NCBI GenBank assembly: GCA_903888345.1
Contig: CAISTG010000053.1
Location: 1 to 54,732 of the forward strand
DNA: 54,732 bases
Direction: 5' to 3'
DNA from: Candidatus Buchananbacteria bacterium
GTDB taxonomy: Bacteria; Patescibacteriota; Patescibacteriia; 2-01-FULL-39-33
Part shown: one piece after another, positions 44,017 through 46,052 of the stretch
Numbering within the stretch: the first letter of the stretch is position 1
How the letters are laid out: every line of letters starts with the position of its first letter
Translations under genes and position numbers: made by a program
Notes under the pieces: generated by a model
What the model was told of the DNA's origin: nothing
The model's input: the letters and a program-made list of their open reading frames with translations, nothing else
The model's database searches: none

Positions 44017-44367
44017 TTAGACTGATTCAATAATAGCCATTTCAGCGCCATCATTGACACGAGGAGCTAACTTGGTGATACGAGTATAACCGCCTTTGCG
44101 TTCTTTATACTTTGGTCCCAAAACCTCAAATAATTTGTTAACCGCGCCTTCAGTATATAAAAACTTCAAAGCTTGGCGGCGATTATGTAAACTATCGGTC
44201 TTACCCAGGGTAATCAACTTCTCAACGACTGGGCGCAAGAACTTAGCTTTAGCTTTGGTGGTCTTAATTTTCTCATACACCACAAAACTAGTAGCCAAAC
44301 TGCGGGTTAAGGCAACACGAGGCTCTTTAGTACGACCTAAGGTTTTTCCTTTACGATTATGTCTCAT
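44017..44367 (-). CDS. rplQ: 50S ribosomal protein L17
   Basis: 116 residues. MRHNRKGKTLGRTKEPR, RSLATSFVVYEKIKTTKAKAK and GGYTRITKLAPRVNDGAEMA match bL17. It follows rpoA in the usual order after a 99-bp gap containing an inverted repeat of the AAAGT family. Confidence 0.95.
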   Translation of the reverse strand: MRHNRKGKTLGRTKEPRVALTRSLATSFVVYEKIKTTKAKAKFLRPVVEKLITLGKTDSLHNRRQALKFLYTEGAVNKLFEVLGPKYKERKGGYTRITKLAPRVNDGAEMAIIESV

Positions 44368-44466: not shown

Positions 44467-45336
44467 TTATTCTTCAATTTTCTTCGGTCGGCCACGTCGC
44501 TTAGGAGCGGCAACCTCACCTTCTAAAATTTCTTCGGCTTCTTCTTCGATTGTTTCTGTAGCTGCAACTTCTTCTGCCTTTTCTTCAGCAATCTCTTCTG
44601 CAAGAATAACCGGTTCTTCAATATTAACTTCTTCAATATCTCTAGCTCCGCCTTCCATAATCCAAGTGAACTGGTTAGTTAGAATTTCGGCTGCTTTCTT
44701 CACAGCATCGGCTGGAGAAATTGTGCCATCAGTTTCAATATCTAAAATCAATTTATCATAGTCAGTCTTTTTGCCGACACGAGTCGCCTCGATGCTTAAG
44801 CCGACATTAATAACTGGGGTGAAGATCGAATCAGTAGCAATCACGCCCAATTCTCCCTTATCTCTTTCTTGCTCTTCCACTGGCACATAACCAATGCCTT
44901 TGGCCACAGTTAATTCCATTTCCATGCTGGCATTATCATCAGTCAAAGTGGCAATAACGGCTTCAGTATTAACTACTTCAGCATCCAGAGAATTTTCGAT
45001 ATCCGCTCCGGTAACTTTTTTCTTACCGCTGGATTTCAAATGTAAAATAACTGGTTCTTCGGAATAGACTTTGAATCTTAAGGTCTTTAAGTTCAAAATA
45101 ACTTCCAACATATCTTCTGGCACATTTTCCAAAGAGGAAAATTCATGCTTAACGCCTTTAATTTTAACCGCAGTAATTGAACCGCCAGGTAAAGATGAAA
45201 GGATAGTTCTTCTTAAGGCGTTGCCTAAAGTCAAACCATAACCCGGAAAGCAAGGCTCGATAACGACCTTGGCATGTTTGCCGGCTTCGATCTCTTCTGA
45301 CACAAACTTTTTTGGTAAGGGAATGTGTTTTAACAT
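44467..45336 (-). CDS. rpoA: DNA-directed RNA polymerase subunit alpha lacking the C-terminal domain
   Basis: 289 residues. The N-terminal assembly domain is complete: PCFPGYGLTLGNALRRTILSSLPG (29-51), KGVKHEFSSLENVPEDM, DIETDGTISPADAVKKAAEIL, ending at about 230. The alpha-CTD that normally follows (helix-hairpin-helix, contacts UP elements and activators) is absent. Residues 231-275 form a very acidic Glu/Ala linker, and the protein ends KRRGRPKKIEE, with KRRGRPKK (279-286) matching the AT-hook core RGRP. AAGGAGGAAACAC gives the best Shine-Dalgarno in the operon. Confidence 0.93.
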   Translation of the reverse strand: MLKHIPLPKKFVSEEIEAGKHAKVVIEPCFPGYGLTLGNALRRTILSSLPGGSITAVKIKGVKHEFSSLENVPEDMLEVILNLKTLRFKVYSEEPVILHLKSSGKKKVTGADIENSLDAEVVNTEAVIATLTDDNASMEMELTVAKGIGYVPVEEQERDKGELGVIATDSIFTPVINVGLSIEATRVGKKTDYDKLILDIETDGTISPADAVKKAAEILTNQFTWIMEGGARDIEEVNIEEPVILAEEIAEEKAEEVAATETIEEEAEEILEGEVAAPKRRGRPKKIEE

Positions 45337-45410: not shown

Positions 45411-46052
45411 TTATTTGCTATAAAATTCAACGATCGTTCTCCAGTCAACATTCATGGCGATATCACCAATCTTCGGCTGACTAGTAACTTTTCCTTCTAA
45501 CTTTTCGGCATCGAGTACCAACCAAGCTGGTAAACCATCATTTTTCTTCAATCTGTTCTTAACTTCAGCAAACCCCGGTTTCTTAGCGGCCTTATCAGAT
45601 AAAGAAATGATATCACCGACTTTGATTTGATATGAAGGAATGTTAACCTTCTTGCCATTGACTTTGACGTGACCATGTCCGACAGTTTGACGGGCCGCAC
45701 GGCGAGAAGTCACCATGCCTAAGCGATAAACAGTATTATCCAATCGGCTTTCAAGTAATCTGAACAACCACTCGCTAGTATTACCGACTTTTTTCTTGGC
45801 TTTGTCGAAATAATTTTCGAATTGAGCTTCGATCAAACCGTACATGCGTTTGGCTTTTTGCTTTTCTTTCAACTGCTTGCCGTAGTTAGTTAATTTACCA
45901 GGACGAGCGGTTGGGCCATGCATACCAGGAGCAAAATTTCTTTTGATCATTGGGCATTTAGCGCCATTGCACTTTTCACCTTTCAGGAAAAGCTTTTCGC
46001 CAGCACGGCGGCAACGCTTACACATGGTGTTTTCTGTATATTTTGTAGGCAT
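45411..46052 (-). CDS. rpsD: 30S ribosomal protein S4
   Basis: 213 residues. N-terminal zinc-type cysteines CKRC...CNGAKCP, then GMHGPTARPGKLTNYGKQLKEKQK, the S4 domain (RLDNTVYRLGM...RQTVGHGHVKVNGKKVNIPS) and a normal C-terminus. Primary 16S binder and, in many bacteria, autogenous repressor. It precedes rpoA as usual. A REP-like palindrome separates it from rpsK. Confidence 0.95.
   Translation of the reverse strand: MPTKYTENTMCKRCRRAGEKLFLKGEKCNGAKCPMIKRNFAPGMHGPTARPGKLTNYGKQLKEKQKAKRMYGLIEAQFENYFDKAKKKVGNTSEWLFRLLESRLDNTVYRLGMVTSRRAARQTVGHGHVKVNGKKVNIPSYQIKVGDIISLSDKAAKKPGFAEVKNRLKKNDGLPAWLVLDAEKLEGKVTSQPKIGDIAMNVDWRTIVEFYSK

Follow-up and report, generated by a model that had tools for sequence, protein, structure and literature searches.

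An RGRPKK-capped acidic tail in place of the RNA polymerase alpha C-terminal domain suggests a rebuilt hold on DNA in a class of Patescibacteria

Introduction

Bacterial RNA polymerase contacts upstream DNA, and is reached by activators, mainly through the C-terminal domain of its alpha subunit (alpha-CTD). Alpha subunits lacking this domain, and chimeric ones, are established tools in E. coli. RGRP, the core of the AT-hook, is the classic minor-groove motif, and a lone AT-hook is usually a weak binder. The locus studied here belongs to a class of Patescibacteria whose members are tiny and mostly uncultured.

The closest described system is the CarD protein of Myxococcus xanthus. In this protein a module that binds RNAP is followed by an acidic stretch some 50 residues long and by RGRP hooks, both disordered. 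CarD binds the AT-rich minor groove at −63/−77 and still functions when its tail is exchanged for that of human HMGA or histone H1 (PMC8156234). The Q/RGR AT-hook-like motifs of H-NS and Lsr2 are another bacterial case in which an RGR core is used in the minor groove of AT-rich DNA (PMC4466236). Loss of the alpha-CTD has been described for endosymbionts, chloroplasts and Parcubacteria (PMC8321222). The remark on Parcubacteria in that paper stands beside a citation of PMC4508563, the main text of which does not contain the term "RNA polymerase"; the remark concerns the loss and describes no replacement tail. No earlier report of an AT-hook or basic tail on RpoA was found in the open-licence literature.

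Results

The analysed stretch of DNA, referred to as the window, comprises 54,732 nucleotides of a contig (CAISTG010000053.1) from Candidatus Buchananbacteria bacterium. It contains the following features.

44467..45336, minus strand: rpoA, RNA polymerase subunit alpha, 289 aa, without alpha-CTD (ORF, Pfam; sole rpoA of the genome)
44653..45336, minus strand: alpha-NTD, residues 1-228, complete (PF01193 and PF01000 over the full model length; AlphaFold pLDDT mostly >85)
44503..44652, minus strand: acidic disordered linker, residues 229-278 (strongly negative net charge; pLDDT<50 from residue 234; pN/pS 0.51)
44479..44502, minus strand: KRRGRPKK at residues 279-286, a motif of AT-hook type, with IEE and the stop codon after it (kept in relatives; pN/pS 0.10)
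45411..46052, minus strand: rpsD (S4), upstream neighbour of rpoA (PF00163)
44017..44367, minus strand: rplQ (L17), downstream neighbour, 99 nt past rpoA (PF01196)

The protein ends in ...EGEVAAPKRRGRPKKIEE (289 aa). Its N-terminal domain matches PF01193 (E=2.6e-22) and PF01000 (E=3.6e-29). The presence of RNA_pol_L with the RNA_pol_A_bac insert, together with the gene order S13, S11, S4, rpoA, L17, L13, S9 of a standard alpha operon, identifies the product as a bacterial RpoA. A preliminary description of this DNA had reported an N-terminal domain complete to about residue 230, followed by an acidic linker and KRRGRPKK; the ORF, coordinates, strand and tail were all found to be exact. In an AlphaFold model of the window RpoA, computed with 16 relatives, the N-terminal domain is folded and residues 234-289 have a pLDDT<50, so that the linker and hook are predicted to be disordered. 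A patch EE[VI][ND][IV]E[AE]PV (window 44608-44646, RpoA residues ~231-243), which lies just past the N-terminal domain and before the variable part of the linker, is conserved across members of the window's family and might be a protein-binding motif.

The alpha-CTD (PF03118) is absent from the window RpoA. When all six frames of the host genome (1.39 Mb, 98.5% complete) were searched, PF03118 had zero matches even at E<=1, and only one rpoA was present. The 99-nt gap between rpoA and rplQ is too short for a CTD of 67 aa, so a frameshifted domain cannot hide there, and the low pLDDT of residues 234-289 argues against a cryptic CTD fold. At the level of the assembly, neither the downstream frameshift that the preliminary description had named as refuting nor the separate alpha-CTD protein for which it had proposed a search is therefore present in the host genome. 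The genomes of the window's family likewise contain no PF03118 match at E<=1e-5.

Of the genomes sampled across the phylum, 237 of the 265 from other classes gave a CTD match, as did 6 of the 22 from the own class at E<=0.001. When the whole class was searched at E<=1e-5, 43 of its 381 genomes contained PF03118; no match lay at rpoA where the listed places could be compared, and the 26 matches inspected belong to other proteins. Judged from these searches, the loss of the CTD from RpoA is class-wide. The detached alpha-CTDs of the class often lie behind a sigma-70 region 4. The combination of PF04545 and PF03118 was confirmed in three proteins (L033, L274, L277) and is visible by eye in seven more (L031, L275, L276, L281, L284, L285, L290). 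Such fusions might act in trans as modules reading the −35 and UP elements where RpoA has no CTD. Another detached domain (PF03118, E=1.2e-23) forms the C-terminus of an FtsK/SpoIIIE DNA translocase with a gamma domain (L271). By eye, there is a suggestion that detached alpha-CTDs are commoner in families without a tail.

Among the genomes of other classes without a CTD match, 23 RpoAs were found, two of them with a divergent CTD-like end and 21 with a basic tail, one of which (L227) is less cleanly delimited. The 21 tails comprise 19 lysine-rich ones, one near-hook and one KKKRGRPKK. Basic tails are absent from all of the 72 RpoAs with a CTD that were compared, most of which come from other phyla. 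A quick RpoA tree recovers the class as one supported clade and requires seven changes of CTD state, at least three of them on well supported branches; a basic tail has therefore probably coincided with loss of the CTD on more than one occasion. An independent-pairs test of CTD loss against basic tail gave the expected direction, with only three supported pairs and p 0.25.

Seven of the ten RpoAs in the window's family carry PK[K/R]RGRPKK at their end, with a few residues after it. The remaining three, all from one genus, end in KKKRAKK or KKKKES, and by the tree the absence of the hook from this genus is one loss. In a sample of 43 other families of the class, represented by one RpoA each, 6 hooks, 7 near-hooks (RGR, RGK or KRA), 18 lysine-rich tails and 12 RpoAs without a basic end were counted. 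The wider genome set contains hooks in families f10, f11, f17, f24, f35, f42, f43, f53, f76, f80, f85, f91 and f97. The RGRP conservation after the acidic linker that the preliminary description had asked for is thus present in the family and, within the class, in some 13 families besides it. Hook-ending RpoAs also occur in the named Veblenbacteria and Kuenenbacteria, and from these neighbours we infer that the class is ABY1-like. In 33 non-redundant hook RpoAs the motif is at the extreme C-terminus, with 3-14 residues after GRP, and the linker measures 27-68 residues with a net charge of −2 to −18. In families f1, f11 and f43, hook, RGRK, KRAKK and plain lysine tails swap within the family, and other basic tail types following CTD loss include KKRAKK, KKRGKAKK and the H1-like KKTAKKK. 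Hook and basic lineages do not differ in GC content.

The sequence RGRP with flanking basic residues is that of an AT-hook. The Pfam AT_hook model (PF02178) gave no match to the window RpoA, and matches in relatives stayed below the cutoff (E 0.02-2.9; best 15.0 bits against 17.4). The RGRPKK coding pattern occurs once in the 1.39 Mb host genome, within rpoA. Across 57 genomes, the host's own and those of relatives, it has 26 matches, 12 of which are the last codons of rpoA; the others are mostly random frames or short fragments. The clear real exceptions are a small MerR/HTH-like DNA-binding protein with KKRGRPKK near its C-terminus, present in two copies in one genome (L039 and L060, G002), and a long protein from a relative in the class that contains RGRP four times or more (L051/L059, G047:C16). 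An acidic stretch followed by a hook was found in rpoA only, in 287 kb and 220 ORFs sampled from the host genome. The tails of 53 RpoAs contain 13 GRP motifs, against 0.15 expected when each tail is shuffled. In the window's family, pN/pS is 0.10 for the hook, 0.24 for the N-terminal domain and 0.51 for the linker; these values derive from 21 non-independent pairs of 7 sequences with synonymous sites near saturation. Across many families, the hook codons vary while the RGRPKK residues stay to the letter. This pattern of substitution indicates that the hook is under strong purifying selection. A basic tail arising by chance is ruled out by the shuffling, the codon test and the genome-wide uniqueness.

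The preliminary description had also regarded the many extended −10 promoters as fitting a polymerase with weak upstream contacts. With genes taken as plain ORF calls, TGnTATAAT is enriched over shuffled sequence 9.4-fold in the hook genome and 9.1-fold in a CTD-bearing relative, and the TG is present in 29 of 53 and 11 of 23 strict promoters, respectively. The TTGACA −35 box is enriched 8.7-fold in the hook genome, where contacts at −35 look strong by this count. No UP-like AT enrichment was seen upstream of promoters in the host genome, the AT content being flat at background; in a tail-less genome used for comparison, no more than 12 −10-like sites had sufficient sequence upstream of them. 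The equal extended −10 enrichment in the CTD-bearing relative, the strong −35 box and the flat AT content mean that the promoter argument fails.

Discussion

The window RpoA resembles a canonical RpoA (PF03118) in its N-terminal domain, its operon position and an appendage on a flexible linker. The difference lies in the appendage, which there is a folded CTD and here a long acidic linker with a short linear motif. The alpha-CTD is lost as in the CTD-less subunits cited above. With CarD, a member of the CarD_CdnL family with an HMGA-like C-terminal domain, it shares an acidic disordered region and RGRP on an RNAP module. This is a likeness in the way of working only: CarD, with its four hooks, is a regulator in its own right whose partners are RNAP beta and CarG, and here a single hook is part of the core subunit alpha. 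The CarD_TRCF RNAP-interaction domain is not among the Pfam matches of the window RpoA, which is not a member of the CarD family, and no homology is claimed. The RGRP core, K/R flanks and disordered basic context are those of the AT-hook motif (PF02178; HMGA), from which the window motif differs by its single copy, sub-threshold Pfam score and putative DNA binding. H-NS and Lsr2 share the RGR core, which in these nucleoid proteins is in a loop of a folded domain.

We consider it rather probable that the folded alpha-CTD was replaced by an acidic spacer with an AT-hook and that the hooks clamp upstream DNA loosely. Where a minor-groove-binding domain has vanished, an RGRPKK that is under selection and sits on a long disordered tether is most simply a substitute DNA contact. 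The tail would be of the HMGA/CarD type, with a flexible acidic spacer of ~50 residues and one terminal AT-hook, KRRGRPKK. Since each subunit of the alpha-NTD dimer has a tail, a polymerase would carry two hooks on long tethers. These would most likely grip the minor groove, and the backbone, loosely, upstream of −35 or elsewhere on the nucleoid. This might increase the affinity for promoters or the local concentration of the polymerase, without much specificity for sequence. What a real CTD provides, contacts with activators and the reading of UP elements, would be gone, and the acidic spacer may prevent the basic end from adhering to nucleic acid close by. Points against this reading are the AT_hook scores below cutoff, the flat AT content at UP-element positions, the families with no basic tail at all and the usual weakness of a lone hook. 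The DNA binding of the tail, its place and its effect are all inferred from these comparisons.

An alternative, which we regard as unlikely but deserving attention, is that the tail is a generic, non-specific electrostatic DNA clamp for which RGRP is one sequence solution among others and AT minor-groove recognition is irrelevant. This would account for the lysine-rich tails without RGRP in 18 of 43 families, the swapping of tail types within f1, f11 and f43, the plain lysine tails in nearly all CTD losses of other classes, and the similar GC content of hook and basic lineages; H1 tails also stand in for the CarD hooks (PMC8156234). Against it speak the letter-exact RGRPKK across many families despite free codon change, the pN/pS of 0.10, and the near absence of GRP expected under shuffling. 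The equivalence of hook and H1 tail in CarD would explain the interchange of hook and lysine-rich tails in the class and, by analogy, favours a DNA-clamping tail with a modest AT preference. Because several types of basic tail occur and RGRP is just one of them, specificity for the AT-rich minor groove is not what the tails have in common; their shared feature is a basic, disordered end that probably contacts DNA. Hence, of the preliminary proposal that a small motif may have replaced the DNA contact of the CTD, the CTD loss and the conserved, selected hook in its place hold for many families, but a reading in terms of RGRP alone is too narrow.

It is improbable that the target of the tail is not DNA but RNA, the ribosome or an elongation factor, as it would be in transcription-translation coupling, for instance. 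Disordered basic ends do bind either nucleic acid, HMGA1 is reported as RNA-regulated (PMC4496703), and rpoA lies, as usual, among ribosomal protein genes, but RGRP is typical of minor-groove binding and the tail occurs where a DNA-binding domain was lost. The 12 of 43 families with neither CTD nor basic tail indicate that the tail is dispensable in some, as would suit a neutral low-complexity leftover of CTD loss. Such an origin is highly improbable in view of the purifying selection on the hook beside a fast linker and of the repeated appearance of basic tails where lineages of other classes lack the CTD. A transfer of the CTD function to a separate protein of the host can be practically dismissed: 43 of 381 class genomes do encode alpha-CTDs on other proteins, but none was found in the host genome at E<=1 or in the family at E<=1e-5.

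Returning to the DNA-contacting tail, we tentatively propose, at somewhat below even confidence, that in this class of Patescibacteria, and separately in other CPR lineages, the alpha-CTD was replaced by an HMGA-like disordered tail, acidic with an AT-hook or lysine-rich, that contacts upstream DNA. If this is true, a large bacterial class would show that a short disordered motif is able to take the place of a folded domain, and the prediction of promoters and regulation in CPR bacteria would change. It would also mean that the solution used by architectural factors is built into a bacterial core enzyme.
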